NCBI GenBank assembly: GCA_020073705.1
Contig: JAIQES010000022.1
Coordinates: 1-63,797 of the forward strand
Direction: 5' to 3'
Length of the DNA stretch: 63,797 bases
DNA from: Terriglobia bacterium
GTDB lineage: Bacteria > Acidobacteriota > Terriglobia > Acidiferrales > UBA7541
Below the pieces are notes generated by a model, which did not search any database, was not told where the DNA came from, and saw only the letters and a program-made list of their open reading frames with translations. This document shows, in pieces, positions 41,422-54,955 of this stretch (the stretch's first letter is position 1; every line of letters starts with the position of its first letter). The translations under genes were made by a program, and so were the position numbers.

Positions 41422-41653
41422 GTAATTTAAGACCAACACAGAGTAGCGTAACTGACGGAATCCGTCCATTGGACTGTTCGGGTGTGCTGCTACGATGTAG
41501 TCGTATCGTCAAGCGCCGCCTCGCCGCCTTCCGTAGAGGCGGCGTTACACAAAGTGATTCCACTTCAAGAATTCATCGCTCAGTTCAAATCACTCAGTTT
41601 GAATCTTCTTCTGACCGCAAGTTTCTGGTAGTCTGAATGAGTTCGCACGCCGC

Positions 41654-41743
41654 GGAGAGGTGTCCGAGCGGTTTAAGGAGCACGCTTGGAAAGCGTGTGT
41701 TGGGGAAACTCAACCGTGGGTTCAAATCCCACCCTCTCCGCCA
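41654..41743 (+). tRNA. tRNA-Ser (GGA), probable island attachment site
   Basis: A long-variable-arm tRNA: acceptor GGAGAGG with CCTCTCC, anticodon loop in GCTTGGAAAGC (GGA), variable arm GTTGGGGAAACTCAAC, T-loop GTTCAAATC, and encoded CCA. An intact integrase gene begins about 125 bp downstream, so its 3' end is the likely attachment site of the island. I did not find a second copy of its 3' end within the window. Confidence 0.95.
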
Positions 41744-41866
41744 TAATTTTCTAAACCATCTAAAACGAACGTGATACGTGACGTAGCCGTTCCGGGTTAC
41801 GCGCGGGTTACGGATTTAATCGCTGCAACTCCCAGGGAAAACGGTATTAGCCAAAGGGAGACAGCG

Positions 41867-42946
41867 ATGATTGGCATTTACATTCGGCTCAAAGTTGACG
41901 GAAAGCGGACGTTCAGATCGGCACCAGAGGTTCCCGGGGATTACGAATACTGGCTGAAATCTTCTTACGACGGACGTCAGAAATGGCACCGCGTGGGTCG
42001 GTACGACGGAGTTAAGAAAGCCAAGTTTTTGCTTGAGAGGGAGCAGGAGAGGAAAGAAGCCGCTCGCAAGTATGGATTGGTGGCCCCAGCTTCCTTAAGT
42101 CACGTGACGGTTGCCGAGGGAGTGGAGAAGTTCATTCAGAGAAAGATCGCGGCTGGCAAGCGACCGGGGACCGTAACCGCCTACAAATTCACGCTCGGGT
42201 TATTCAAAGAGTTCTGCCCCCATCTTTACGTTGACGAGATCACTGGGGATACCCTCCTAGACTTCGCTGCTTGGTGCCGTAAGCGCGGGGACGCGGAACG
42301 CACCGTAGCTAACCGCTTCGTTGACATCGCATCGTTCATGAAGTTCCACGGCAAGACCGGACTCGTGCCGAAATCAGACTGGCCCAAATACACCGAGCGC
42401 CGGGTGGAATCCTACACGCAGGGGGAACTGGATAAATTCTACGCTGCTGCTAAGACCGAAAAAGAGCGGCTACTCCTTGACCTGTTGATTCATTCAGGAT
42501 TCAGGATCGGTGAGATTGCTCACCTCACTTTTGGGGATGTTGATTTCACTGGAAACAAACTCCACGTTCAGCCCAAGCCGCAGTGGAACTGGGTTCCCAA
42601 AACTCACGAGTGCCGCACGGTGCGCGTACCGGGCAAAGTCATCCTCGCCCTGTCCCAATGGCGGGATAAGAACGGCGAACAGCAACTGGTCTTTCCATCA
42701 ACCGTTGGTAAGCCGGATGAGCACCTGCTAAGGATCGTGGATGACCTTGGGGAGCGAGCCGGGATCACGGGCCGACGCGATGCCCATAAGTTTCGCGCAA
42801 CATTCGCAACCAGGAACTCCGGGCGGTTCCGTCCACAGGACGTTCAGCGAATGCTTGGGCACCGGAATATCGAAACGACGATGCGGTATTTGGCCGTCAG
42901 TGACCTGGACGATGAGGAGTTTGTAAAGAAGATCGAAGCGGCATAA
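41867..42946 (+). CDS. Tyrosine recombinase (island integrase)
   Basis: A 359-residue integrase with an N-terminal SAM-like DNA-binding domain (about 80-170) and a C-terminal catalytic domain. Catalytic residues: Arg in SGFRIGEIAHL, HKFR (HxxR), GH in MLGHRNIETTMRYL, and the nucleophile Tyr. The frame reaches back to 41771, but ATG 41867, preceded by AGGGAG, gives a typical N-terminus. It lies next to tRNA-Ser, directed away from it. It should mediate integration and excision of the element that extends rightward. Confidence 0.92.
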   Translation: MIGIYIRLKVDGKRTFRSAPEVPGDYEYWLKSSYDGRQKWHRVGRYDGVKKAKFLLEREQERKEAARKYGLVAPASLSHVTVAEGVEKFIQRKIAAGKRPGTVTAYKFTLGLFKEFCPHLYVDEITGDTLLDFAAWCRKRGDAERTVANRFVDIASFMKFHGKTGLVPKSDWPKYTERRVESYTQGELDKFYAAAKTEKERLLLDLLIHSGFRIGEIAHLTFGDVDFTGNKLHVQPKPQWNWVPKTHECRTVRVPGKVILALSQWRDKNGEQQLVFPSTVGKPDEHLLRIVDDLGERAGITGRRDAHKFRATFATRNSGRFRPQDVQRMLGHRNIETTMRYLAVSDLDDEEFVKKIEAA

Positions 42947-42983: not shown

Positions 42984-43160
42984 ATGGAACAACTTTTAAC
43001 CATTAAGGAAGCGGCCGCTGCGCTTCGTATACATCCCGATACCCTAAGACGTTGGATGGGAAAGAACGACTGTCCAACATACGTCAGGATGGGGCGGAAG
43101 ATATTCTTCCGTGAGGTAGCCCTCAGGGAATTTGTCGATAAGAAGGAAGTGGTCTGGTGA
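42984..43160 (+). CDS. Excisionase-like helix-turn-helix protein 1
   Basis: A 58-residue protein of the HTH_17/AlpA type: MEQLLTIKEAAAALRIHPDT, then LRRW and a wing (RMGRKIFFREVALREFV). An AAAGGGG ribosome-binding site lies upstream. It starts 38 bases after the integrase stop. Probable recombination directionality factor or regulator of the integrase. Confidence 0.82.
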   Translation: MEQLLTIKEAAAALRIHPDTLRRWMGKNDCPTYVRMGRKIFFREVALREFVDKKEVVW

Positions 43161-43243
43161 AGTGGGCTCATGCACACCAGATCGCTAACGTCAACGATAA
43201 GTTCGGCACTAAGCCGGGTGCCCAATCGGGGAGGATAGGATGA
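43157..43243 (+). CDS. Possible 28-aa coupled ORF
   Basis: A GTG at 43157 overlaps the TGA of the first HTH gene, and the frame ends at a TGA that overlaps the ATG of the second HTH gene (43240). The double overlap looks like translational coupling and might only serve to pass ribosomes along. No recognisable protein features. Confidence 0.25.
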   Translation: MKWAHAHQIANVNDKFGTKPGAQSGRIG

Positions 43244-43404
43244 AACTCTTAACCGTCCGCGAAGCAGCTAAGCAACTTGCTTTAGCGCCGAAGACCGTGC
43301 GCAAGCTCATCAAAACTGGCTCGCTTCGCGGCGTCAGGGTTGGTCGTCTGTGGCGCGTCGATCAGGATGAACTCGATTTATTTGTGTACCGACGTAGGAC
43401 ATGA
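43240..43404 (+). CDS. Excisionase-like helix-turn-helix protein 2
   Basis: A 54-residue protein with the same architecture as its neighbour (MKLLTVREAAKQLALAPKTV, then RKLI and a wing GVRVGRLWRVDQDELDLFV). It is preceded by a strong GGGAGG. Two paralogous excisionase-type proteins in tandem suggest one controls excision and the other transcription; which is which cannot be told. Confidence 0.82.
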   Translation: MKLLTVREAAKQLALAPKTVRKLIKTGSLRGVRVGRLWRVDQDELDLFVYRRRT

Positions 43405-43470
43405 AGCAACTCTGCCAAGTAATCGGAAGCGAAAACACCAGCTGCCGTCCAGCGGTTGCAGTTGTGTAGA

Positions 43471-44292
43471 TCATCGTCTTCTCTTTCGAGGCGATTTACC
43501 GCGCTTCTTGGCCCGCCTTCTTTGCCCGGTCTCTCGCCACCATTTGAGTGCGTGTTGTTGATGGGCATAGTCGGTGCAAGCTCCCTTTTCACAGTACTTC
43601 TGGTCTATACGCTTCTTTACGAAATAAGGGGCAGAACAGCCCGGATTTCCGCAAACGCCGATCTTCTCATCCCAATCGTCACACTTAAACAAGTAGCAGA
43701 TGAATTGCCACAAGTCATCAGTCGTCAATGAAACGTGCGACGGAAAGAAGCCAACCCTGAAAGCGCGCCCCTCAAAGTCGCCTCCGATTCCTATTAACCA
43801 TGCCCGGCGCAAAACACTCTGTCGGTCTGCAACTTCGGCAATATTTTGGGCGAAAGCAGGATGGTCTTTGCGAGCCCCATGAAACACCCCATAGGTTGTA
43901 ATGAATTTCTCGACTGCTTTCGGGTCTATTTGCAACCCCAACTCGGGCCTCGTAATTGGCTTCCCCTCCTTATTCCGTGTCGGAAGATTCGCAAGCTCCA
44001 CGTGAGGCAGTGGATGAATCGGCAGAGCAGGATCAGGGATTGCGATCATCTGGTCCAGGATCGCTATCGGGTGGGATACATGTGGCTCTGCGATTTGAGA
44101 TGTAAGATGAGCCAACTGGAGCTCACGCACGCCGTAGTTCCCAACGCGCACGCCGGGCGTCGCACGATCAGGGATCATCAGGATAGAGTCTCCGCTGGCG
44201 CCCCTCTCATCGACGTAGCTCCCGACAATACAGCCATTCTGAATGCGTGTAGTCACTGGCCGATCAAGGGAAAGGCCGACCAACGCCCTCAT
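43471..44292 (-). CDS. Zinc-finger protein, CGNR-like C-terminus
   Basis: A 273-residue protein transcribed against the rest of the island. The C-terminal part has a Cys cluster, CGNPGCSAPYF then YCEKGAC, followed by a basic tail (RRRAKKRGKSPRKRRR), resembling CGNR-type zinc fingers that bind DNA. The N-terminal part is unrecognised. The frame is open to ATG 44391, but the extra 33 residues are encoded by the GCTTGATC repeats, so I prefer ATG 44292. Its divergent position suggests an island repressor; this is inference. Confidence 0.65.
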   Translation of the reverse strand: MRALVGLSLDRPVTTRIQNGCIVGSYVDERGASGDSILMIPDRATPGVRVGNYGVRELQLAHLTSQIAEPHVSHPIAILDQMIAIPDPALPIHPLPHVELANLPTRNKEGKPITRPELGLQIDPKAVEKFITTYGVFHGARKDHPAFAQNIAEVADRQSVLRRAWLIGIGGDFEGRAFRVGFFPSHVSLTTDDLWQFICYLFKCDDWDEKIGVCGNPGCSAPYFVKKRIDQKYCEKGACTDYAHQQHALKWWRETGQRRRAKKRGKSPRKRRR

Positions 44293-44313
44293 TGCATATC
44301 TGAATTTATAAAT

Positions 44314-44454
44314 GCTTGATCGCTTTGAACCGACTTTTTGCTTGATCGTCTCTGAGCTTGATCGCTTTGAACTGACCTTTTGCTTGATCACTACGACTCC
44401 ATTGACATCAAGCGCAGCTTAAGTGAATGTTGTGCTTGATAGCTTTTGAACGAT
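44314..44454. repeat. Iteron-like GCTTGATC repeat array
   Basis: Two 42-bp tandem units (44314-44355 and 44356-44397) share GCTTGATCGCTTTGAAC and a second internal GCTTGATC. A third partial unit (GCTTGATAGC plus TTTTGAAC) starts at 44434, and one GCTTGAT lies on the opposite strand near 44405. The array is between the divergent zinc-finger gene and the rightward operon. It may be an operator for the divergent promoters or a replication origin with iterons. Confidence 0.7.
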
Positions 44455-44519
44455 TCCCTGTCTAGCAAAAGCTACCACGGGGATTGGTCCGGTGTCGAGT
44501 AAGACCTGCGAGGTTTTCA

Positions 44520-45113
44520 ATGGCTGACGTTACAAAAGTCGATTTGCTTACGATGAGTGCAAAGCAGAACACCATCGCGGAGTTGAAAGCCAAGCTAAGA
44601 GACGCGTGGCTTCGAGGCAAGGACCAGCGGGTCGAAATCGGCACGCTGCTCCTTGCATTGCGTGCGCAGGCAGAGCATGGCACGTGGGGCAAGTTGCTCG
44701 CCGAGATTGGTATCCCCGCAACCACGGCCGCAGATTACATGGTTGAGGCCAGCCGTCAAATCCACGGAATCCGTGTATTTGGGCCGCAGCCCGATCCCGA
44801 GGCCCAAGAGATGGAAGAAGCTCTCAACGCTGCGACGGTGTTGGTTAAGGGCGCAGGCCCATCTGACGATTCGCTTTCGCCAATTCCGATTGCCCAACCG
44901 AAACCAAAGCGTGCCAAGCCGCAGCTTGAGCAGCGCAGCCGAGTTAGGGGTCCGGTCTTGTATTGCACGGCTACGCAAAAGGAGGCCTACCAGGCAGCCA
45001 AGAAAGAATACAAAGAGCGGGTGTACCAGACCTTCTACGACGCCCTCATGGTAGTGATCGCCGAGCAGCAAGAGGAGGCGGCAGATGAAACTCTTGCAAC
45101 TCAATGCGGATGA
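44520..45113 (+). CDS. DUF3102-like phage/plasmid protein
   Basis: A 197-residue protein. The first 90 residues (IAELKAKLRDAWLRGKDQRV, then GTWGKLLAEIGIPATTAADYM) match the pattern of DUF3102, a helical domain common in phages and plasmids. The middle is Pro/Lys-rich and the C-terminus Glu-rich. ATG 44520 follows GAGG; the longer frame from 44484 is less likely. It is the first gene of the rightward island operon, and its end overlaps the dioxygenase gene by 29 bases. Confidence 0.68.
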   Translation: MADVTKVDLLTMSAKQNTIAELKAKLRDAWLRGKDQRVEIGTLLLALRAQAEHGTWGKLLAEIGIPATTAADYMVEASRQIHGIRVFGPQPDPEAQEMEEALNAATVLVKGAGPSDDSLSPIPIAQPKPKRAKPQLEQRSRVRGPVLYCTATQKEAYQAAKKEYKERVYQTFYDALMVVIAEQQEEAADETLATQCG

Positions 45114-45918
45114 CAAGCAGGGGGCTCTTCAACTAAAGGGCACCTATGCCAATGACACCCACTACGATCACGTGGTGGACGACGATACGGTTGTGCTGAC
45201 GCCGGACGGAGAAGTCCTCGCCGTCCTCGTCGCGGGGGTTATTTCAGCCCGCGCACGGCGCAAGGCATACAAACACCTTCGAAGCATTTACGGCATGCCG
45301 AGCAATCGCGCTACCGCTGTCTACCGTGGGTCGTCGTTGCCGCGCATTCGTAAGCGTGATGGTTCACTTTCCCGCACGCGGCAGGTCCCGCATTCCATTC
45401 TTGACCTGCTTGAGCGCAAGGGTGTGAGGGCAGATGTCCTCGGCTACTTGGACACCACTCCACGCATTCGCAAGTGCCGCTTGAGTGCGTGGTCCCTTAA
45501 CAAGCCGGAAGTGCTCCGGGGAGTGATGCCATTCGTTCATGAAGTGGACGATGTGTTTCGCAGTTGGATACCGGATCGTTACGCGGCTCAGCTTGCCGTG
45601 GTTCATCAGGTGCCAGGCTGGCACCTCCACGGAACGGCGTTCACTACCATCACCGTGAACAAGAACTTCCGCACCGCATTTCACACCGACAAGGGCGATC
45701 TGAAAGCGGGGTTCAGCTGCCTCGCCACTCTGGGAAAGTTCTCCGGTGGATTGCTGGTAATCCCTCGCTACCGGGTCGCCTTCAAGATAAGGCCGGGCAG
45801 CGTCCTGATGATGGATGCCCATGAGTTCCACGGGAACACGCAGATTGCGGGCGAGCGCATCTCCTGCGTTCTGTGCTGCCGGGAAAGGATTGCCAAATGT
45901 GGCGGAGGCGAGGCCTGA
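45085..45918 (+). CDS. TET/JBP-like 2-oxoglutarate/Fe(II) dioxygenase
   Basis: A 277-residue protein. The C-terminal half (about 165-270) is a double-stranded beta-helix of the TET/JBP type: iron ligands His200 and Asp202 in FHTDKGD, GGLLVIPRYRVAF, then DAHEFHGN with His246/His249 as the distal-ligand candidates and Arg258 in GERISCVL for 2-oxoglutarate. The N-terminal part (RKRDGSLSRTRQVP, LGYLDTTPRIRKCRLSAW) also matches phage proteins of this group. Known members oxidise 5-methylcytosine or thymine in DNA. No cytosine methyltransferase or base glycosyltransferase is nearby. ATG 45085 has GAGGAGG upstream. Substrate and role are inference. Confidence 0.78.
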   Translation: MKLLQLNADDKQGALQLKGTYANDTHYDHVVDDDTVVLTPDGEVLAVLVAGVISARARRKAYKHLRSIYGMPSNRATAVYRGSSLPRIRKRDGSLSRTRQVPHSILDLLERKGVRADVLGYLDTTPRIRKCRLSAWSLNKPEVLRGVMPFVHEVDDVFRSWIPDRYAAQLAVVHQVPGWHLHGTAFTTITVNKNFRTAFHTDKGDLKAGFSCLATLGKFSGGLLVIPRYRVAFKIRPGSVLMMDAHEFHGNTQIAGERISCVLCCRERIAKCGGGEA

Positions 45919-45987
45919 ACATCAATCTCTATTACGACATGGATTCAGATTCAAACCGGCTCTTGCACGGCTGAAAGGAGATATGGC

Positions 45988-46344
45988 GTGAATTACAAGC
46001 AGCTGATCTCTGACAGCGTACTCGCCAACAAGAGTCGCAAGCAAACGGCGCTAGATCTGAAGATTCCGCCAGGACTCTTGGACCAAGTAATCGCCAAGAT
46101 TTGGCCGAGCACACGCGGTAAGTGGACAGCGTTGCGCGAGACGCTCGGCTTGAGTCCCTGGGGACATATGCGGAACCACAATCCCTGCGTGCCAGGATTC
46201 AGGTTCGTTAAGGATTCCCAATGCAAGTCCTGTCAGCGAGCGCAGTGGTGCGGTCAGCCTATCCCCTTGAATGAGTCCGGCATGTGTTTGAACTGCGCGG
46301 CAGTACGAAAAGCCACGTCTGCGCAAGCGGAGGAAATGCAATAG
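45988..46344 (+). CDS. Small Cys-rich protein
   Basis: A 118-residue protein starting at GTG 45988, seven bases after AAAGGAG. The first 55 residues look like a helical DNA-binding segment (SRKQTALDLKIPPGLLDQVI). A Cys cluster follows (CKSCQRAQWC, then CLNC), probably a zinc site. No family is recognised. It lies between the dioxygenase and replication genes of the island. Confidence 0.6.
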   Translation: MNYKQLISDSVLANKSRKQTALDLKIPPGLLDQVIAKIWPSTRGKWTALRETLGLSPWGHMRNHNPCVPGFRFVKDSQCKSCQRAQWCGQPIPLNESGMCLNCAAVRKATSAQAEEMQ

Positions 46345-46358
46345 TCGGCGAGGCCAGA

Positions 46359-46643
46359 ATGACGACAGAAACTAAGAAGAAAGTGGCGGGCAGTCGTGTG
46401 GTTAAAGATACAAAGAACACGATTAGTGCCCGGAAGTGCGAAACCACAGTATTAAGCGACAGAGCATCCCGAACCTGCCCGTGGCTATCTCTTAGCGGGG
46501 CTATCCACGGCAGGCCGGATGCGAAAGTGGCCCCGCTAACAATCGATCATATTTGTCGGGGCTGCAAGCGACACGGCCTCAAGCGCACCGTTGGCAAGGG
46601 TTCTGTCGCTTGGAAGAACAAGCAAACACAGAGGGTGGCTTAA
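46359..46643 (+). CDS. Small hypothetical island protein
   Basis: A 94-residue basic protein from ATG 46359, preceded by GCGAGG. Its Cys residues (about 27, 40, 66 and 69) may form a loose zinc site. It ends 2 bases before the ATPase start codon, so it belongs to the island operon. Not recognised. Confidence 0.5.
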   Translation: MTTETKKKVAGSRVVKDTKNTISARKCETTVLSDRASRTCPWLSLSGAIHGRPDAKVAPLTIDHICRGCKRHGLKRTVGKGSVAWKNKQTQRVA

Positions 46644-46645
46644 GC

Positions 46646-48268
46646 ATGGAGTTTCCCGAGTTATTATCGGTTCTGCTGTACGAGGATTGTTCCGCTCATA
46701 TCCTGACTGAGGAAGCCCGGTTAAAGACGCTTGCCACCGCAAACGGCTGCAACTCGGCCCTCATCTTGTATCTGAATTACTTCAACAAGATCAAACAGTG
46801 TCCCAACCCAGAACAACTCCTGAGTCATGGGTTCAGCACGCCCAAGTTCAGCGAGGAACAGATAGCAGACGATTTGGAGCGGGCCGCTGACTACAGGAAG
46901 GCTTTCCCTCCAGGCAGCTTTGCTATGGCCTTAGAACACGCCTGGGGAGAAGCAAATCAACAATATATGTCTCATGGCTATACGACGGCTCATGGCATAG
47001 CGGGCCGCCACCTTCCCAAAGCAGTTGACCAGCGGCAGTTGAAGAAGCTCTATGGTGAGGAACAAGCTGATTGGGATTTCACAGCGTTCAGTCAGATTTG
47101 GTTGGCGGGGTATCTTGCCGCGAACCCCTTCACCAAGAAAGAAGCAGAGGAGGTGGAGGCCGCCAACGAGCATGAATATGTGCTCGCCACAGGGGTTGGA
47201 GTAGAGGACGATGAGGTCGTCAATACAACGCTCACCGCAATCAATGCCACAGACGTCAAGCCAGAGCTATTGCGATGGTTATGGCCTGATAGAATCCCCC
47301 AAGGCAAGATCTGTTGGTTCGCTGGTAAGCCGGGACTGGGAAAGTCGCTCGCTATGTTGGACCTTATCGCCCGTGTAACAACGGGAGCGGCATGGCCCGA
47401 CGGGACAAAGAACAGCTTACCTCCACAAGATGTGTTGTTGGCGGTATCGGAGGATGGTCTTGGGGATACGGTGATCCCTCGGCTCAATGCCGCAGGAGCA
47501 GACCTGGCAAGGATCAAGTTCATACATCGGGTCAAGGTCAACGAATCGCAGAGACTCCTCCAACTCAGCAATGACACCCAGTTACTGAAAAAGGCGCTAC
47601 AAGCGAATCCCAGTGTGACCTTGGTGGGGCTAGACCCCTTAACGTCTTTCTCTGGCGATGTGAACATCAATGTGGATCAGGACATTCGCCCCATCATGGA
47701 CGCGCTTTCGTCTCTCTGCAATAAGACCGGAGTAACACTCGTTGGCGTGATTCACCATAACAAGCGGAGTGACGTGGACGCCTTGCAGAAAATTCTTGGG
47801 GCTTCCTCCGTAGCAGGAGCCGCTCGTACAGCCTGGGGATTCAGCCGCGACCCCGACAACCAAAACGAGTTCTATATGTCGCTTGTTAAGAACAACCTCT
47901 CCAAGCGCCGCACAGGAATGAAGTACACGATTGGTGAGAAGACAGTTGGTGACATCCCAGCGCCGCATATCGTATGGGGAGAGGAAACAGACGCTACGGC
48001 AGACGATCTTCTTAATGCCGAACGGGATACCAGTGGCAGAGCACAGAACAAGCAGATCACATTGGCCCGTGAGTTTCTCCCTCAAGCTCTTGCTAAGGGA
48101 CCGCGCCTCGCCCAAGAGCTTTATGATGAGGCGGAGAGGGCGGGAATCTCATCGGACACTTTGAAGCGGGCCAAGCGTGAGTTGGGCGGGATAACTGTAT
48201 ATCGCATGAACAATCGTTGGACATGGAGCAATTCTAGTGATGACCCGATTCCAGACGACGTGATCTAA
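46646..48268 (+). CDS. RepA-like AAA_25 ATPase/helicase
   Basis: A 540-residue protein. The N-terminal 180 residues are helical and somewhat DnaB-N-like. A RecA-fold ATPase (about 205-400) has Walker A GKPGLGKS (about 226), Walker B LVGLDPLTSF, and the downstream block SVAGAARTAWGFSRDPDN seen in AAA_25/RepA-type proteins of plasmids and phages. The C-terminus looks like a winged helix (ELYDEAERAGISSDTLKRAK). It is probably the replication initiator or helicase of the island. ATG 46646 follows GAGGGTGG; the upstream extension overlaps the small gene. Confidence 0.83.
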   Translation: MEFPELLSVLLYEDCSAHILTEEARLKTLATANGCNSALILYLNYFNKIKQCPNPEQLLSHGFSTPKFSEEQIADDLERAADYRKAFPPGSFAMALEHAWGEANQQYMSHGYTTAHGIAGRHLPKAVDQRQLKKLYGEEQADWDFTAFSQIWLAGYLAANPFTKKEAEEVEAANEHEYVLATGVGVEDDEVVNTTLTAINATDVKPELLRWLWPDRIPQGKICWFAGKPGLGKSLAMLDLIARVTTGAAWPDGTKNSLPPQDVLLAVSEDGLGDTVIPRLNAAGADLARIKFIHRVKVNESQRLLQLSNDTQLLKKALQANPSVTLVGLDPLTSFSGDVNINVDQDIRPIMDALSSLCNKTGVTLVGVIHHNKRSDVDALQKILGASSVAGAARTAWGFSRDPDNQNEFYMSLVKNNLSKRRTGMKYTIGEKTVGDIPAPHIVWGEETDATADDLLNAERDTSGRAQNKQITLAREFLPQALAKGPRLAQELYDEAERAGISSDTLKRAKRELGGITVYRMNNRWTWSNSSDDPIPDDVI

Positions 48269-48302
48269 GGGGGCGGGCGGGTACGCCATACCCCATTACC
48301 CG

Positions 48303-48402
48303 CTTACCCCCTTACGTCCTTGGAGGAAAAGAGCCTCTAATACTAATTCTCTATTTCTTCTTCTCTTACCCGTTCAACCGAGTAAGAGCGTAAGGGGGTA
48401 AG
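48303..48402. repeat. Perfect 14-bp inverted repeat with nested hairpin after the RepA-like gene
   Basis: CTTACCCCCTTACG at 48303-48316 is exactly complementary to 48389-48402. Immediately inside the right arm is a second stem, CTCTTAC (48363-48369) with GTAAGAG (48382-48388). TTACCC-like words also recur just before the left arm. The structure lies 35 bp past the ATPase stop. It could be a terminator, an origin-like element or the end of the island. Confidence 0.7.
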
Positions 48403-48487
48403 GGTTTAAGGGCGCCCTGCCCGCTCCCTTCCAACAGCGTACGCCGCTAGCGTCCTGCAGGGTTGGCTAGCGAAGCAAAACTTTCGT

Positions 48488-48528
48488 GGCGGGCCACATT
48501 CCGAAAAGACCGTTTCTCAGGACCTATC
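48488..48528 (-). repeat. R1 palindromic repeat, copy a
   Basis: Reverse-oriented copy of the R1 family (GGGCCACATTCCG followed by TTTCTCAGGACC). It marks the left limit of the R1-rich zone, just right of the island. Confidence 0.65.
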
Positions 48529-48576
48529 CGCTCAGAGACGTGTTTTTCACAGCTGTCATTGCAGAGGAACGAAGTC

Positions 48577-49065
48577 CTACCTACCAAATAAAGTGGCTGT
48601 GAAGTACAAGAACGCAGCAAGCAATAACGTGATTACGATGACCCCACTAAAAATAAGCAATCTAAGCAAATGCCGCTTTACCGTCATCGTATCGCCCTTA
48701 TCAGGTTCAACATTGGGATTCCAAGCTGAACGGACAAGCATGCTTAGGCTCACAAGGAAGGCGAGGACCCACAGCGCGAGAAATGCTTGCCTCAGAAGGT
48801 AAAGAGTTGGAGTAAGAATGGTCGGCCCAAACCCAACCCCCTGAATCAACGCATGCAAAAACGTAAGTATCCCTACACCTATTACGAACCTTTCCCAAAA
48901 GCACGTAAACATGCGCATCAATATGAAGCATTCTGCGAGTGCGACAACGCAGAAAAGGAGGTAAAAAAGGTAAAAGTTGTTAAAGAGGCTGAAGGCAGAA
49001 TAAACTGCGCCCAAATCTCTCCAACAGAGAAACGATTCCAGTGCGGAGAACGCAACAAAGCACAA
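48577..49065 (-). CDS. Hypothetical four-helix membrane protein
   Basis: A 162-residue protein with four hydrophobic segments (about 25-48, 62-82, 88-112, 135-158). The annotated start is a TTG at 49065 and is uncertain; no ATG or GTG precedes it in frame before a stop. No known domain. It lies between two R1 repeats. Confidence 0.5.
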   Translation of the reverse strand: MCFVAFSALESFLCWRDLGAVYSAFSLFNNFYLFYLLFCVVALAECFILMRMFTCFWERFVIGVGILTFLHALIQGVGFGPTILTPTLYLLRQAFLALWVLAFLVSLSMLVRSAWNPNVEPDKGDTMTVKRHLLRLLIFSGVIVITLLLAAFLYFTATLFGR

Positions 49066-49183
49066 TGCAGTGCGTATATTCCTAACTGCACAATATCGTG
49101 CGTGGTATCCTCATTCGACTGATTTTTGGTCAAGCGAGAGTTCCTTTATTTGGTATTTGTATACACCATGAACCCCGCAGAGC

Positions 49184-49250
49184 CAAGTCCTGTGAAGTCC
49201 GCTTCTCGGAATGTGGCCTCACCGCGAAAAGCCAGTGGCCGATAATCCCG
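49184..49250 (+). repeat. R1 palindromic repeat, copy b with inverted partner arm
   Basis: AAGTCCTGTGAAGTCCGCTT followed by CTCGGAATGTGGCC, then after about 12 bases an inverted arm (CCAGTGGCCGATAATCCC). The two arms are imperfect inverted copies of each other. Confidence 0.7.
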
Positions 49251-49344
49251 TCTGTCGGGAGCTCGCCCTAAATAGGAACATGAATAGGGTCGCGACGATG
49301 ATCGTGTAGGTACGGTTCATCCGAGGCATGAACCACATTGCGGG

Positions 49345-49785
49345 TCACTCCAAATTGAAAATATCGATCACCACGTTCGTCTTGCGGTTCAACAGGACGA
49401 TGTGACCACCTATGAGCACGTGCGCGCTCTCGGGGGGCGGAGGAGGCAGACGCCGTTCGAGATCCGGAGGGCAGGGTTGAATGCGCTTTTGCAACCCTGG
49501 GGGGAGCGTGCCGCGCCGCACGAGCTGCTTTTCGAGTCCCGGCGGCAACTGGTCTTTCTTGGCAAGTCCAGGGGGGAGATTGCCTTGGTGGTCGCCGTAC
49601 CAGCTGCGGATGTCCCGATCGTGATCTTTGTAGTAGCCAGCCTGCGGATCGTCATCGCCGTGTTTCCCGTGGCCTTTCCCCTGGTCCTTCCCATGACCGT
49701 TTCCGTTCCCTTGGGCTAGTGCAAAGCTACTGGCGAGTGCGAACAGTCCCGCCGTGCAGACTAACAGCCATTTTTTGGATTTCAT
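49345..49785 (-). CDS. Secreted protein with LPPGL repeats
   Basis: A 146-residue exported protein with a signal peptide (hydrophobic about 6-23, cleavage after ALA). A Gly/His/Lys-rich segment follows, then three LPPGL repeats (LPPGLAKK, LPPGLEKQ, LPPGLQKR) and a final beta hairpin (HIVLLNRKTNVVIDIF). The pattern resembles small periplasmic proteins of the RcnB-like/anti-virulence type, but assignment is loose. ATG 49785 follows GGAGGAG at ideal spacing. Flanked by R1 repeats on both sides. Confidence 0.72.
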   Translation of the reverse strand: MKSKKWLLVCTAGLFALASSFALAQGNGNGHGKDQGKGHGKHGDDDPQAGYYKDHDRDIRSWYGDHQGNLPPGLAKKDQLPPGLEKQLVRRGTLPPGLQKRIQPCPPDLERRLPPPPPESAHVLIGGHIVLLNRKTNVVIDIFNLE

Positions 49786-49918
49786 CGTCTCCTCCGACCT
49801 CGTCGCGCTAGGATTCCAGAGTAGCAACAAAATCTGTGTGCAACAATTCTTGATTGGTAGCCGTGTTTCGGACCGGGAACCCAGAGCAGACGGGTAGTGA
49901 CCGTTACCGATGCCGGAG

Positions 49919-49952
49919 CCAACTCCTGAGAAGTCGGCTTCTCGGAATGTGG
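49919..49952 (+). repeat. R1 palindromic repeat, copy c
   Basis: CTCCTGAGAAGTCGGCTTCT followed by CGGAATGTGG; the core GAGAAG/CTTCTC forms a 6-bp hairpin with a 4-nt loop. It lies between the LPPGL gene and the tandem Usp gene. Confidence 0.65.
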
Positions 49953-50014
49953 AAAATGCTGATTTCCAGTTAATGGGATCCCACGCGGAGAGGCCTTTGA
50001 TGCCTTAAGTAGCC

Positions 50015-50884
50015 TCACACGCTCAGGACAGGGATGCGCGATTCGCGAATGATCCCATAGCCCGTGGCCCGCAGTCGGCCGCCAGCCGGGCGGCCGATAA
50101 TTAACACGTCCGCACTCGATTGCTTTGCCGAATGGCTCAACATCTTAGGGACGTCACCACTGCCGATAAACACCTCGGCCTTGATGCCAACCTCCTGCTG
50201 AAGATTTGCGAGCTGGCGGCCGGCAGAATTTACAAGAGCCTCTGTCACAGAGGGATCTACTTGGTACGCTCCAGGACCATAGATTTCCACCCCGGAGGTG
50301 ATGTGAGCAAGCGTCAGCCGGGCGCCAAATTCGGCGGCCATCTGCGCGGCCCACTGAATAGTCTTGGGGCTATGGGGGCTCAAATCTACCGCACAGAGGA
50401 TGTTGCGAATCGAAAATTCGCGGGTGGGCTCTTCTTCCAGATGGGCACCGGTCCACACGGGGCAATCGCTATCGTGAAGCACTTTCGCTGTCACCGAACC
50501 CAGGAGGAAGCGGCGAAACGCCCCGTAGCCGTGCGTCGGCATGGCGATCAAGTCGGCTTTTTCATCGCGAGCTGTTTTCACGATGGTGAGCGCCGGATCT
50601 CCTTCCAACAGCACGCGCTTAACGGCAAGACCATCGAGCTCAGACCCTAGCGCCCGATCCAGTTGTTTCTGGGCCTGGCGGATGAGTTCCTTGAGCAGAT
50701 CGCCCAGATTAGCGGGCACATAACTGCCCTCGATCATGGCCGCGGAATAGCTTAGCGGCGTCACCACGTGCAACATCACGATCTCGGAATGGAAGTGGCG
50801 GGCTAGAGTCGCAGCCTGATGAACCACACGCTTCGATGAGTCCTGGAAATCGATCGGGAGAAGAATCCTGGCAATTTTTAGCAT
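50015..50884 (-). CDS. Tandem-domain universal stress protein
   Basis: A 289-residue protein with two UspA domains (about 1-145 and 150-289). Both show the N-terminal beta strand with Asp (ARILLPIDF, NILCAVDLS). The first has a nucleotide-binding loop of the GxxGxxxxxxGS type (THGYGAFRRFLLGSVTAKV); the second is shorter (GRPAGGRLRATG). ATG 50884 is preferred to 50902, but ribosome-binding sites are weak at both. The protein probably binds ATP and acts in stress survival. It is separated from the neighbouring Cache-protein gene by a long repeat-containing gap. Confidence 0.87.
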   Translation of the reverse strand: MLKIARILLPIDFQDSSKRVVHQAATLARHFHSEIVMLHVVTPLSYSAAMIEGSYVPANLGDLLKELIRQAQKQLDRALGSELDGLAVKRVLLEGDPALTIVKTARDEKADLIAMPTHGYGAFRRFLLGSVTAKVLHDSDCPVWTGAHLEEEPTREFSIRNILCAVDLSPHSPKTIQWAAQMAAEFGARLTLAHITSGVEIYGPGAYQVDPSVTEALVNSAGRQLANLQQEVGIKAEVFIGSGDVPKMLSHSAKQSSADVLIIGRPAGGRLRATGYGIIRESRIPVLSV

Positions 50885-51050
50885 CGCGCACCCACCGAAC
50901 ATTCAGTGTGCAGTTTAGTCGGGAGGTCCACGCTGGGATTCCCGAAGAACTAAGAGTATATACCACACGGCGGATCACCCAATCCGTTGGGCAGTTCTCA
51001 TTTGATTTGCCGTTCCGCTCCGCCAACCATTCACTTCTCTGATTACTGCC

Positions 51051-51195
51051 AAGTCCTGAGAAGTCCTGTTATCGGAATGTGGCCCACTACCAAACCTTTG
51101 GTGCTCTTGCTTTGGATTGTCAGGCGATCCCCCACGGTCCCTACAAAATCACGGCGGCTGCTGGGAATTCCATTGAGACTGCCCCGTTTATCAGG
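51051..51195 (+). repeat. R1 repeat, copy d, extended 145-bp form
   Basis: Begins with the R1 core (AAGTCCTGAGAAGTCC, then TATCGGAATGTGGCCC) and continues about 110 bp with DNA that is also present after copy g (shared words GTGCTCTTGCTTT, CGATCCC, GCGGCTGCTGG). It ends with GAGACTGCCCCGTTTATCAGG, which also terminates copy f. Confidence 0.7.
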
Positions 51196-51531
51196 CGGAA
51201 TCCGGTCTGGGTAGTAGGGCCTGTTCGTAATGCGTATCTTGAAGTGCGCAATATCTTGCGGATCAGTTGCGCCTGCTGCGTATCTCAGAAAGTTCGTTGA
51301 CGTGGGAATGGCGCGGCATCGCGCCGCCGCGTTTAAAAAAAAATTGCGCCAAAGTTCCTTTCTCTCCGAAAACCGTCTGGCGCGACAGAATCGCTCAACT
51401 TTTCCAGTCCCTTGGTCTTCCACGAAATTTTCTGAATTTCCGTTATGAATTTCTCTCCGCGGGGGCTGGAACGTCCGAAATTGAGACGGCTTCGACCCAT
51501 CTCAGATTCCTTGAAACGGGGCCCCGACTTA
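51196..51531. other. Intergenic region, nothing firmly recognised
   Basis: About 335 bp between repeat R1d and the end of the Cache-protein gene. A short GC-rich hairpin (GGCGCG near 51309 with its complement) precedes an A-rich run, but its orientation does not make a clear terminator for either strand. No gene is convincing. Confidence 0.35.
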
Positions 51532-53286
51532 CTACTCCATGTAGACCCCCGACCCGAGGATGTAGGTATCCTGACCTGATTGAACCTTCCGCACGTAGGT
51601 CTGCTTACGCGCAGGCGTATTACTTCCGGGCTTATACCAGTAGTAGTCAACCCAGGCGCTGCCATTTTTCATGGCAGCGGCGATGTACTCCTGGACCAGC
51701 GCCTTCCCCTTCACATCCTTCAGGTCGATGACGTTCTTTCCTTCCAAGCTGGGTTGCGCGGGATTCACCAACTCGGTACCATTAGGGGTGTTAATGAAAA
51801 CATAGGTGTCCATAAAGACAAAGGGCCCCGTCTTGTCCCGCAATTGGCCAAAGGCTTCCTTCCCTCGGTCTGCGACGATAGTGGCCGCATGATTCACGAC
51901 ATCCTCGATGAACGCCTTGTCCATCTGCATGTTGTAGATCCCACATCCGATGACGTATTGCTTCCCAGAAGGAAAAGTAACCCGCTTCAAGAAGGTGGAC
52001 TTCCAGGTCGGAAAGATATCCCCGGGTTCGGGGTACATGTAGTGGATCCATCCCTCACCGGAAGTGCTGTCAGCTGCCTCGAGGATCATCTTGCCGATGG
52101 GCCTTCCCAGGATGTCCTTCATGCCGCTCACATTCTGCCCCTCCCCTGTGGGGTCCGCGGCATGGAAAACTCTGGTCCCGTCCATGGTCCAGACAAAGAA
52201 ATAGGTATCGTCGCGGAACCACTTGGAACCCTTCTTTCGAAACTCGGGATAAGCCTTCTCGCCTTGCTTTTCCATGACTGTTGCTCCGTCCCGGACAAGT
52301 GTCATCAGTTCCGGAGCAGTCATCTTCTTGGCGACCGAGACCGCTTTGGGAGCATCGGCCAGGTAGACACCGCAACCTACCAGCACCCATTGTTCTCCCA
52401 TCTTCGCTTTGCTCACATAAGTAGACTTCTGTGTGGAGACACTCTCTCCCGGCTTGGGCCACATATAGTCGACCCAGCCGGAACCACTGGTTTGCACCAC
52501 CTTGAGCATCTCCCGGATCAACTGCTTGCCTTGGGTGTCTTTCACGTCCAAAATGTTGCGTCCCTCTAGGTTCGGGAATGCTGGGTTGACGAGATCGACG
52601 CCACTCGGGTCGATAACGAAAATGTAGGCGTCCTTGGCGATGAAGGGACCTGTAGGGTTGTGGAAGAGGGGAAAAGCTGTTTTGCCATTCTTCTCGATCT
52701 GTCCGACGGCGTCCTTCACGGCGTCCACGACAAAGCTCTTTTCCATGCGATCGTTGTACATGCCGGCGCCGACCACGTAGCTCTTGCCGGACGGAGCCGC
52801 TACGAGCCGCACGTAGGTGCTTTTCCATCGAGGAAGAATCCCGCCTGGAACAGGCCATTGGTAGTGGTACCAGCCGTCTGGTTTGCTAGGGAGAGTCGTT
52901 GCGGCACCGATGAGGCCCCGGATGATAGGTTTCCCGTTGATGTCTTTCAGGTCCAGCTCGTTCTTGCCTTCCATCGCCGGATCGGGATGGACGAGCATGT
53001 TTCCGTTGAGATCCAGCACAAAGATATACGTCTCTTCCTGCCGCCACCGGCTGCCGGAAAGACGGAAGTCGGCAAAGGCCGCTTCCCCTTTTGTGTGGAC
53101 CAGATCCGACGCGTCGTCCACCAAAGCGACGAGTTCGTGGGTCTCCTTATGTTCGTACGCCTGATCGAGATTGGTGGCGACGGTCTGCGCGTTGCCGTTG
53201 AAGGACCCCAAAAGCACCAGAACCGCTGCAAGTGCTATGCGCCGCGGGACTAAACTTAAGAGAGAAGCCGTTCTTTGCGTGAGCAT
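51532..53286 (-). CDS. Secreted protein of four Cache-like repeats
   Basis: A 584-residue exported protein: signal peptide (about 15-34, ending NAQ), then four consecutive Cache-type sensor repeats of about 130 residues each. Each has a helix, a TYIFV/DAYIFV/DTYFFV/DTYVFI strand, an EGKN/EGRN/EGQN-type turn, a G.W..Y.WP/Y.YP segment, K(S/Q)TY or KSTF, and a closing VG.G(M/V)Y strand. Repeats 1 and 3 resemble each other, as do 2 and 4, pointing to duplication of a pair. There is no transmembrane anchor, kinase or methyl-accepting domain, so it would be a free periplasmic binding protein. A CRP/FNR-like site lies 81 bp upstream. Confidence 0.85.
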   Translation of the reverse strand: MLTQRTASLLSLVPRRIALAAVLVLLGSFNGNAQTVATNLDQAYEHKETHELVALVDDASDLVHTKGEAAFADFRLSGSRWRQEETYIFVLDLNGNMLVHPDPAMEGKNELDLKDINGKPIIRGLIGAATTLPSKPDGWYHYQWPVPGGILPRWKSTYVRLVAAPSGKSYVVGAGMYNDRMEKSFVVDAVKDAVGQIEKNGKTAFPLFHNPTGPFIAKDAYIFVIDPSGVDLVNPAFPNLEGRNILDVKDTQGKQLIREMLKVVQTSGSGWVDYMWPKPGESVSTQKSTYVSKAKMGEQWVLVGCGVYLADAPKAVSVAKKMTAPELMTLVRDGATVMEKQGEKAYPEFRKKGSKWFRDDTYFFVWTMDGTRVFHAADPTGEGQNVSGMKDILGRPIGKMILEAADSTSGEGWIHYMYPEPGDIFPTWKSTFLKRVTFPSGKQYVIGCGIYNMQMDKAFIEDVVNHAATIVADRGKEAFGQLRDKTGPFVFMDTYVFINTPNGTELVNPAQPSLEGKNVIDLKDVKGKALVQEYIAAAMKNGSAWVDYYWYKPGSNTPARKQTYVRKVQSGQDTYILGSGVYME

Positions 53287-53366
53287 TTACAGATCCTCCA
53301 TGTGCTCCGGGTATTGCCGAATAGCACCCAACATTTTTACTTTTACCAAATATCCACAAAGATGCA

Positions 53367-53380
53367 GTGATCCAGATCAC
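53367..53380. promoter_or_regulatory. CRP/FNR-like palindrome upstream of the Cache protein
   Basis: GTGATCCAGATCAC is a perfect 14-bp palindrome fitting GTGA-N6-TCAC, 81 bp upstream of the minus-strand start at 53286. The pattern is typical of CRP/FNR/DNR-family operators. Confidence 0.5.
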
Positions 53381-53610
53381 GCCCCTTTCATCCGCTGTTT
53401 CCGAATTGCCGACTATCCGGAGTTGACGAGGTTGCTTACCACGCGATACTTGTGGGATACCCGCGACACCACAATATCTGACCGGCATCACAGTCCCCAC
53501 CTCCACCGCTTATAGACTGTATTGTTAGGGAATGCCACAAGTGAACCTTTCCTCTGCGCAAAAGGTTCGAAGAGCAAAGAGATTGAGAACTCACGTTAAC
53601 GGAGGATGAA

Positions 53611-53652
53611 ATGGACACAAGAAATGAGGCGACGCAGCGGATTAGATTATAG
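53611..53652 (+). other. 13-codon ORF with strong ribosome-binding site, cut off at a repeat
   Basis: ATG 53611 follows GGAGG at ideal spacing, but the frame ends after 13 codons, exactly where repeat R1e begins. It may be a leader peptide or the 5' stump of a gene truncated by the repeat. No downstream continuation was found. Confidence 0.3.
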
Positions 53653-53735
53653 GTCCCGGGAAGTCATCTTATCGGAATGTGGCCCGGAGCGTCACAGGTC
53701 AATTCTCACATTCCGATAATCTCGTTTCTTAGGCC
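53653..53735. repeat. R1 repeat, copy e: two inverted copies
   Basis: A forward copy (CCCGGGAAGTCATCTTATCG, then GAATGTGGCCC) is followed after about 20 bp by a reverse copy (CACATTCCGATAATCTCG, then TTTCTTAGGCCC). The result is a long imperfect palindrome, similar in layout to paired REP elements. Confidence 0.7.
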
Positions 53736-53896
53736 CTGTCCGGTCCATGTGGGGGATAACTTCCGGTTAGCCCGTCATCCCAGGACTTACTCCTTCGTTT
53801 GGGCTAGAATCGATCAGCAACTATGCCACTAGGCAAGGGCGACGTGTACCCTCGACCGCCCGGCACCGCTAGACAAACAGCAGGAGAAACTCTGTG

Positions 53897-54955
53897 ATGA
53901 AGGTTCCATGGTTGGGCGTCGGACTCGTATTAATCGCTTTTGCCGCGGCATGGCCTTTCGCTGCACAGCAGGCACCCGCGTCCAAGATGCCGCCGTTGAT
54001 CGTCGAGAGACAGGGCAGTTTTTTTGTCGGTGGCCGTGACCTCTATTCGGAAACTCTATCGACCAGTCCCCTGTACCCGCCAACTGGTACCGTCACCGTA
54101 GACCAAATATACGTGCGTTATCAAATTCCTGTTGACGCGATTCGCCATCCCATCACGCTGATCCACGGCTGCTGCCTGACTGGGAAAACCTGGGAGACGA
54201 CACCGGATGGCCGGATGGGTTGGGATGAGTATTTTGTTCGCAAGGGTTACCCGACTTACGTTATCGACCAGGCTGCACGCGGGCGTTCCGCTGGAAATTC
54301 ATCGACTATCAACAGCGTTAAACTCGGTAAGACGCCGCTTAATCAGTTGCCTGCAGTGTCCGAAGTCGGGCACGAGGCCGCTTGGACCATCTTTCGTTTC
54401 GGGCCGGAGTACCCGAAGGTGTTCCCGGGCATGCAATTTCCACTCGACGCCCAAGGCGAATTTTGGAAACAAATGGTGCCGGACTGGAGCGCGTCGCTGC
54501 CGACGCCCAATCCGACGGTGCCAGCATTGTCCCAGTTGGCAGCGCGGCTCAATGGAACAATACTCGTTAGTCATTCGCAATCGGGAATCTATCCATTCCA
54601 AGCCGCTGCTCTCAGCACAAAGGGAATCGCGGGCATTGTTTCGATCGAGCCCGGCGCCTGTCCGGCGGCAAGCGGTGACCTACAGCCTTACACCAAGATG
54701 CCGATTCTGGTGCTGTTCGGGGACTATGTCGATCTCTCGCCGCGCTGGGCGCCACGACTCAAGGGATGCCAGGAATTCGTGGCGGCGGCAAACAAATCAG
54801 GCGGTAACGTTGAACTCGTTATGCTGCCTGATATCGGCATCCACGGCAATTCACACATGTTAATGCAGGACAGAAACAGCCTGGAGGTCGCGGACTGGCT
54901 GCTGGGTTGGATTGATCGCCACATCGAGCAGAAACCACAGAAAGGGGTTCGATAA
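53897..54955 (+). CDS. Secreted alpha/beta-hydrolase (esterase 713-like)
   Basis: A 352-residue exported hydrolase with a signal peptide (about 5-23). The adjacent-Cys motif HGCCLTGKTWE followed by GWDEYFVRKGYPTYVIDQ is characteristic of the esterase 713 group, where the vicinal cysteines form a disulfide near the active site. The nucleophile Ser is in SHSQSG, and a late His in GIHGNSHM is the catalytic His candidate. It probably hydrolyses small esters in the periplasm. GTG 53894 and ATG 53897 are both possible; AGGAG lies upstream. Confidence 0.85.
   Translation: MKVPWLGVGLVLIAFAAAWPFAAQQAPASKMPPLIVERQGSFFVGGRDLYSETLSTSPLYPPTGTVTVDQIYVRYQIPVDAIRHPITLIHGCCLTGKTWETTPDGRMGWDEYFVRKGYPTYVIDQAARGRSAGNSSTINSVKLGKTPLNQLPAVSEVGHEAAWTIFRFGPEYPKVFPGMQFPLDAQGEFWKQMVPDWSASLPTPNPTVPALSQLAARLNGTILVSHSQSGIYPFQAAALSTKGIAGIVSIEPGACPAASGDLQPYTKMPILVLFGDYVDLSPRWAPRLKGCQEFVAAANKSGGNVELVMLPDIGIHGNSHMLMQDRNSLEVADWLLGWIDRHIEQKPQKGVR

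Follow-up and report, generated by a model that had tools for sequence, protein, structure and literature searches.

Organization of the element

The window, meaning the whole stretch of 63,797 nt that was analyzed, contains an integrative element at a tRNA-Ser (GGA) gene (41654-41743, forward strand; ARAGORN and Rfam), the 3' end of which forms the left junction (attL). The first gene of the element encodes a tyrosine integrase of 391 aa (41771-42946, forward; PF00589, E = 8.8e-22). It is followed by genes for two excisionase-like HTH_17 proteins of 58 aa (42984-43160, forward; PF12728, E = 6.5e-12) and 54 aa (43240-43404, forward; PF12728, E = 9e-12) and by a divergent ORF of 306 aa (43471-44391, reverse) with a Cys-containing C-terminal stretch, which was taken from the ORF list, yielded no family match in Pfam, PHROG, PADLOC or NCBIfam, and has an uncertain start because its first 26 codons overlap repeats. 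A forward-strand run then comprises a DUF3102-like partner gene (44520-45113; phrog_1748, E = 1.9e-6), a gene for a TET/JBP dioxygenase of 277 aa plus stop (45085-45918), two small ORFs and a gene for a Rep-like AAA_25 ATPase of 540 aa (46646-48268; PF13481, E = 3.7e-28, scanned from 46553). The ORF of the partner extends from 44484; its ATG at 44520 matches the start of the relative at locus L007, and the gene overlaps the start of the TET gene by 29 nt. The first small ORF (45988-46344, forward, 118 aa) begins with GTG, preceded by an AAGGAG-type site, and matches no family above the cut-off; with several Cys residues, it is possibly a zinc protein. The second (46359-46643, forward, 94 aa; scanned as a 119-aa ORF from 46284) yielded no family match, and the Rep gene begins 2 nt past its stop codon. 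The run from the partner to Rep is operon-like, and its genes would be expected to be co-expressed.

Where the 306-aa ORF diverges from the TET run, a repeat and motif search found four TGCTTGATM motifs (44313-44441), possible iterons or an operator, two of which lie within paired near-identical 34-nt repeats and one at a repeat edge; the whole window contains six such motifs, with 1.06 expected per window. The right end of the element (48270-48529) is an inferred boundary, placed where similarity to the relics L136 and L137 of the congeneric genome G005 stops, at 48529; an interspersed repeat also ends at about 48529, near this boundary. This repeat, which has a core of the GGAATGTGG type, occurs at 48494-48523, 49180-49216, 49916-49952 and 51046-51082 (one copy inverted), and is present at many further sites in the host genome and its congeners. 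A search for attR by exact direct repeats between 41640-41790 and 43001-54000 gave none longer than 10 bp and one 10-mer, diverged or more distant sites being outside its reach. Within the Rep gene, positions 48130-48145 repeat 16 nt of the tRNA-Ser 3' end (41727-41742) in inverted orientation with 94% identity, which may be due to chance.

With its integrase at the tRNA 3' end and element sequence running from the end of the tRNA, the element is a tRNA-Ser integrative element of putative mobility. The earlier note had described an island with integrase, excisionases and a RepA-like ATPase, and Pfam confirmed all of these (PF00589, two proteins with PF12728, PF13481). It had also seen no base methyltransferase or glycosyltransferase, which agrees with the absence of any Pfam match to such families among the ten element-region proteins scanned. 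Matches to a kinase (including a 5hmU DNA kinase), to ADDT or aGPT-type transferases or to TAGT were likewise absent from the element proteins in Pfam. The PADLOC model MTase_II touched, weakly, only the HTH of the excisionase-like proteins, and PADLOC and NCBIfam together gave nothing specific for the element beyond recombinase, 2OG and HTH models.

The TET/JBP protein

The ORF at 45085-45918 matched Pfam PF12851 (Tet_JBP) with 93.3 bits (curated cut-off 34.9, E = 1.3e-26) and PHROG phrog_24024 (E = 8.2e-48), and the sequence of the solved fungal CcTet aligned with residues 185-274 at an E-value of about 6e-5. An AlphaFold model, for which a 53-row alignment served as input, had a mean pLDDT of 86.9 and a pTM of 0.84. 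The top ranks in Foldseek were CcTet, TET2, NgTET1 and CMD1. Under VIA-align the model gave a Z-score of 21.7 with human TET2 (250 residues, rmsd 3.0), 20.4 with NgTet1, 18.8 with CcTet and 17.7 with CMD1; the best fold outside the TETs was ALKBH3 (Z 14.6), and the AlkB and FTO folds ranked well below the TETs. The TET/JBP assignment of the earlier note is borne out by the profile score and by this coherent predicted TET fold, and the protein is confirmed, by family and predicted fold, as a TET/JBP 2-oxoglutarate dioxygenase. A small-molecule 2OG oxygenase was dropped as a candidate, the solved TET structures being clearly ahead of other folds.

The pattern of HxD, distal His and Arg that had been read from the sequence recurs among the relatives: the iron ligands H200, D202 and H249 are invariant across the 53 rows, and R258 is conserved in at least 90% of them. 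Of the two His residues in DAHEFHGN, H249 is likely to be the ligand rather than H246, because the TET at locus L008 keeps H249 only. D205 is the Asp at H+5 and presumably corresponds to NgTet1 D234 and TET2 N1387. The C5-methyltransferase-linked TET of phage Melnitz also has Asp at this position, so that the active-site pocket does not discriminate between thymine and 5-methylcytosine (5mC), and the residue was set aside as an uninformative discriminator.

The TET gene gives the sole Tet_JBP match in the host genome (G000, taken to be that of an acidobacterium; 3.79 Mb, 97% complete). None of 14 control genomes has such a match, and a draw of 396 genomes from the phylum gave 2, one of them being the host, which indicates that the pattern is not due to chance; among the 101 near genomes there are four, again including the host. 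A search of plasmids gave no relative of the window TET at E 0.01. Compared over 249 codons with the TET of the congener G004, dN is 0.09 and dS 0.91 (dN/dS about 0.1), which demonstrates purifying selection and, as judged from this codon comparison, a working gene.

The gene preceding TET

The earlier note had given the gene order as int-xis-DUF3102-dioxygenase-rep. The DUF3102 label failed for the window itself, where the partner had no match to Pfam DUF3102 (PF11300) at E-values up to 10, but it holds for the equivalent in G208, a genome from another family of the phylum (locus L159), in which the gene in the partner position matches PF11300 with E = 1.4e-10. The order recurs only in part, with partner and TET side by side in six loci, an integrase in G005 and G008, and AAA_25 in G208.

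A small non-ParB partner stands directly before TET in six of six Acidobacteriota loci. Ninety-nine loci, chosen for likeness to the TET set of the window, were examined for ParB; 94 had an upstream ORF in reach, and a ParB-like gene lay directly upstream of TET in 73 of these by a single-pass profile, which excluded L015, and in 74 by an iterated profile, which had drifted and taken in L015. The 74 hits contain 67 distinct sequences, near-duplicates inflating the count. The misses include five Acidobacteriota loci (L007, L008, L009, L015 and L159), all with another small partner; the remaining 16 are rows from phages, viruses or other sources, with various genes upstream. At L077, L083, L086 and L049 the gene upstream of TET has a P-loop of the form GxxxxGK[ST] (by eye), a possible kinase in the usual ParB slot.

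The partner in G004 is 67% identical to that of the window, and the partner at L015 resembles those of G005 and G008 at L008 and L009 (E = 3.8e-14). Window-type and G005-type partners show only marginal similarity (hhalign probability 3.6%, E 0.012). Profiles of window plus L007 and of L008 plus L009 plus L015 gave no cross-hit at E-values up to 10, neither profile links to G208, and the groups share only a pattern seen in alignment. When the homologous or first start codon is taken, the partner and TET frames overlap in G004, G005, G008 and G208.

Related elements in the Acidobacteriota

The window TET pairs with that of G004 (86-87% identity over 249 residues), where the contig ends inside the TET gene. 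In G008, a genome of the same family, the order after a tRNA-Ser(GCT) is integrase, a small ORF that by eye resembles an excisionase, a partner of 198 aa and TET, where the contig ends. The element in G005 has an integrase and, in one run, a DUF3102-like partner of 211 aa, TET and a 572-aa protein that fuses an AAA_18 kinase to ADDT; a Prim-Pol/D5 primase is encoded on the opposite strand. Unlike the window element, this sister element thus carries a kinase and ADDT. In Terriglobia MAG S3 (L015) the partner has 193 aa, and TET is accompanied by a primosomal-type protein. In G208, DUF3102, TET and an AAA_25/PriCT_1 protein form one short run with no kinase or ADDT directly beside it. Near this run, in opposite orientation, lies a CAP12/Pycsar TIR effector gene (L159, 5870-6985; PF10137, 4.6e-18). 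In a tree of 99 rows, to which the G208 TET does not belong, window plus L007 and L008 plus L009 branch deeply as two distinct pairs in an unresolved set that includes phage TETs, so that a single capture of TET and multiple captures are indistinguishable.

A match of 450 nt (90%), which covers the tRNA and runs 341 nt beyond it, is located at a tRNA-Ser(CGA) in G005; in G001, G002 and G004 other sequence follows their tRNA-Ser. Because G005 has the same left end at a different tRNA-Ser together with a relic of Rep and the right end, the element type is, on sequence comparison, one that inserts repeatedly. The copy at the tRNA-Ser(CGA) (L137, about 7724-8647) is decayed, with the left end and the first part of the integrase kept and the rest lost. 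The other relic (L136, 11532-12567) consists of the C-terminal half of Rep (257 aa) and the right end; genes for a permease and a UbiD-like protein (by eye) are found within a few kb of it, and the TET element of G004 adjoins similar genes, possibly a second insertion hot spot. Relatives of Rep occur in 8 of 101 genomes, among them one in a prophage-like region of G005 and one in a small integrase element of G093 (by eye), so that this type of Rep is not specific to TET elements.

Viral and phage relatives

Most of the TET relatives found, among the matches listed, are viral contigs and phages. A scan of IMG/VR yielded at least 579, of which the best 80 were kept; the GTDB contigs yielded nine, three of them the loci in G004, G005 and G008. 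A whole-record search covered 50 of 85 records (4 named phages and 46 IMG/VR contigs, with shorter contigs left out). Among these 50 TET-bearing records, to which the counts refer and of which the IMG/VR share comes from the best 80 of at least 579, ADDT, named by Pfam as amino acid:DNA transferase, was found in 27, a TAGT-like glycosyltransferase in 11 (nine over the cut-off) and a C5-cytosine methyltransferase (PF00145) in one, absences being weak evidence because many of the records are fragments. With one seed profile, a kinase-like gene was found directly downstream of TET in 5 of 95 loci, so that by this test kinase adjacency is not general.

Among the matches listed, the nearest TET outside the genus by tree path is that of L024, where ADDT, a ParB-like gene (called from a weak PHROG match and an own profile), TET and Ploopntkinase3 form a run. 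The TET of Caulobacter phage Cr30 is 41% identical over residues 114-276. Phage Melnitz has an HhaI-type C5-methyltransferase beside TET; in the 99-row tree its TET and that of phage Kharcho fall outside the window's set on long branches, which are placed unsurely. The closest TETs among the matches listed thus appear to lie in phage contexts of thymine hypermodification rather than of 5mC.

Two further arrangements were observed. In Pelagibacter phage HTVC112P (L010, 8497-9195) an FkbM-type methyltransferase (PF05050, 9.7e-14) follows ParB and TET; the genome has no ADDT or TAGT match, and FkbM is perhaps another cap for the hydroxyl. In Haloechinothrix alba (L018, 6554-8882) a ParB-like gene (below cut-off), a weakly TAGT-like gene and TET stand in a row.

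Substrate and proposed function

A profile search of the host genome gave no match to PF00145, to ADDT or to TAGT (PF20691), the last being the glycosyltransferase family that the genome search covered. The congener G005 also lacks a PF00145 match; G004 and G008, both carriers of TET, have such matches. The characterized ADDT enzymes, according to Lee and co-workers, reportedly act on phosphorylated 5hmU. In phages M6, ViI and phiW-14, the supposed common intermediate is 5hmdU, on which a 5hmdU DNA kinase acts before further modification, as set out in the accessible text of PMC6449724, and the parB-like, tet-like, aGPT-Pplase2 and 5-hmU kinase genes of Tonitrus are described in the available part of PMC11955845 as a possible thymidine hypermodification system. 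Thymine is moderately favored over 5mC as the probable substrate because the related TETs travel with ADDT or TAGT and rarely with PF00145, the host is without PF00145, the G005 element has a kinase and ADDT, and the literature on hypermodification points the same way. Hypermodification, which the earlier note had named as the known use of such enzymes, has accordingly become the preferred reading of the sequence evidence. Its suggestion of a free-standing eraser, or of an enzyme acting on host or helper-phage 5mC, has become the less likely one in view of the ADDT/TAGT context, the absence of PF00145 from the host and the kinase and ADDT of G005.

The reading put forward here, at slightly below even confidence, is that TET acts on the DNA of the element itself during replication and hydroxylates its thymines, as a minimal or helper-dependent form of phage-type hypermodification. 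TET would be made together with Rep from the replication operon of the element and would convert the thymine methyl group to that of 5-hydroxymethyluracil (5hmU) while the excised element replicates, so marking the element DNA. The DUF3102-like protein, which occupies the ParB-like slot, probably recruits or targets TET. The element's own replicating DNA is proposed as the target because TET stands in a tight run with Rep and because TET followed by AAA_25 recurs in G208. As no kinase, ADDT or TAGT was matched in the element and no ADDT or TAGT in the host, the route would stop at 5hmU in the window element unless a co-resident element or phage supplied a kinase and an amino-acid transferase; in the G005 element, which encodes kinase and ADDT on site, the pathway would continue. 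The 5hmU mark might give partial protection alone or be extended by kinase and amino-acid-transferase enzymes. By itself it would protect only modestly, since the 5hmdU-containing DNA of phage SP8 was resistant to 17 of 204 Type II enzymes, partial phosphorylation adding to the resistance, according to the accessible text of PMC7653180. Protection, regulation of replication and conflict with other elements are all candidate purposes.

The alternative that survives best, although rather unlikely, is that TET oxidizes 5mC made by the host, a helper or an invader to 5hmC, either to prepare for glycosylation or to erase the mark and so alter restriction or regulation. In its favor, TETs are best known for oxidizing 5mC, the model is most similar in fold to TET2 and NgTet1, which are 5mC oxidases, an HhaI-type methylase accompanies the distant TET of Melnitz, and PF00145 is present in G008 and in G004, whose TET is the 86-87% identical one. 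Against this, PF00145 is matched neither in the host nor in G005 and in only one of the 50 related records (IMG/VR share from the best 80 of at least 579), and the Melnitz TET falls outside the window's set, its long branch being placed unsurely. The 5mC eraser was lowered from first choice on the absence of PF00145 from the host and its rarity in the related records.

It is quite unlikely that the element is a remnant of a longer hypermodification module which has lost the partner enzymes, TET being a drifting or helper-dependent leftover. Such decay would fit the lack of the kinase and ADDT that the sister element in G005 has, the failure of the exact-repeat search to find attR and the decayed copies of the same element type in G005. 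The intact frame and iron site and the dN/dS of about 0.1 against G004 speak for a maintained gene, however, and the recurrence of DUF3102, TET and AAA_25 without kinase or ADDT directly beside them in G208 means that the short form occurs more than once.

Defence genes are common on islands, which lends some color to a last, very unlikely proposal, that TET serves defence or conflict between elements by oxidizing bases of invading phage or rival DNA or by stripping protective marks. The accessible text of PMC11404850 speculates that bacterial TETs are anti-phage enzymes, and the G208 TET has the CAP12/Pycsar TIR effector gene nearby, but no defence family was matched with weight (the PADLOC hits being generic 2OG and HTH models), TET is part of the Rep run, and the relatives among the matches listed come mostly from viral contigs and phages.

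Returning to thymine hydroxylation of the element's own DNA, a wider formulation, that non-phage Acidobacteriota elements write their own hypermodified base, with the DUF3102-like protein loading TET and the G005 element adding a phosphate and an amino acid, is offered tentatively.

Comparison with known systems

The enzyme family and the phage hypermodification pathway are already known. Burke is said to have described in 2021 phage 5mC-TETs that come with a C5-methyltransferase and a glycosyltransferase. These TETs and that of Melnitz have the Pfam family and the HxD...H site in common with the window TET; they differ in that the window element and its host are without a C5-methyltransferase match, and the Melnitz TET is distant in the tree. 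PICI and P4-like elements are small, tRNA-integrating phage satellites or islands. Like them, the window element has int, xis and a Rep or primase and no recognized capsid gene; unlike them, it has no identified capsid-hijack or terminase gene and no known helper. The kinetoplastid proteins JBP1 and JBP2 are large eukaryotic proteins with further domains, whereas the window TET has 277 aa; the family name is common to both, as would be, by analogy, the proposed thymine reaction. For JBP1/2 this reaction, from T to 5hmU in DNA, is given in the accessible text of PMC6449724.

The phage TETs of thymidine hypermodification (Tonitrus, compared by description only, Cr30 and L024) belong to the same family and have a small gene upstream of TET in a run. 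They are viruses and carry ADDT or aGPT-type enzymes, which the window element lacks; L024 and Tonitrus, moreover, have kinases and ParB-like genes, whereas the window element has the DUF3102-like partner instead. The closest parallel is found in fungi, where TET/JBP genes of unproven function reside on DNA transposons without a glycosyltransferase, as far as the accessible text of PMC12730594 goes. There the carriers are eukaryotic transposons, and here a bacterial tRNA-integrating element in a host without a detected C5-methyltransferase. In the part of the literature covered, which makes for a weak negative, no report was found that places a TET on an integrative island or a satellite in bacteria, nor one of small bacterial elements in which TET, a DUF3102-like partner and either Rep or a primase recur in order.

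DNA hypermodification is known as an anti-restriction strategy of phages, and the present reading, if true, would extend it to the wider world of mobile elements, in the form of satellite-like elements of few genes that carry the first enzyme or, as in G005, the first three activities. It would also provide a compact system for the function of TET without a full phage pathway and for the targeting of TET, natural versions with and without the kinase being available in one genus. Chemical disguise of their own DNA may be a practice of islands too, and not of phages alone.
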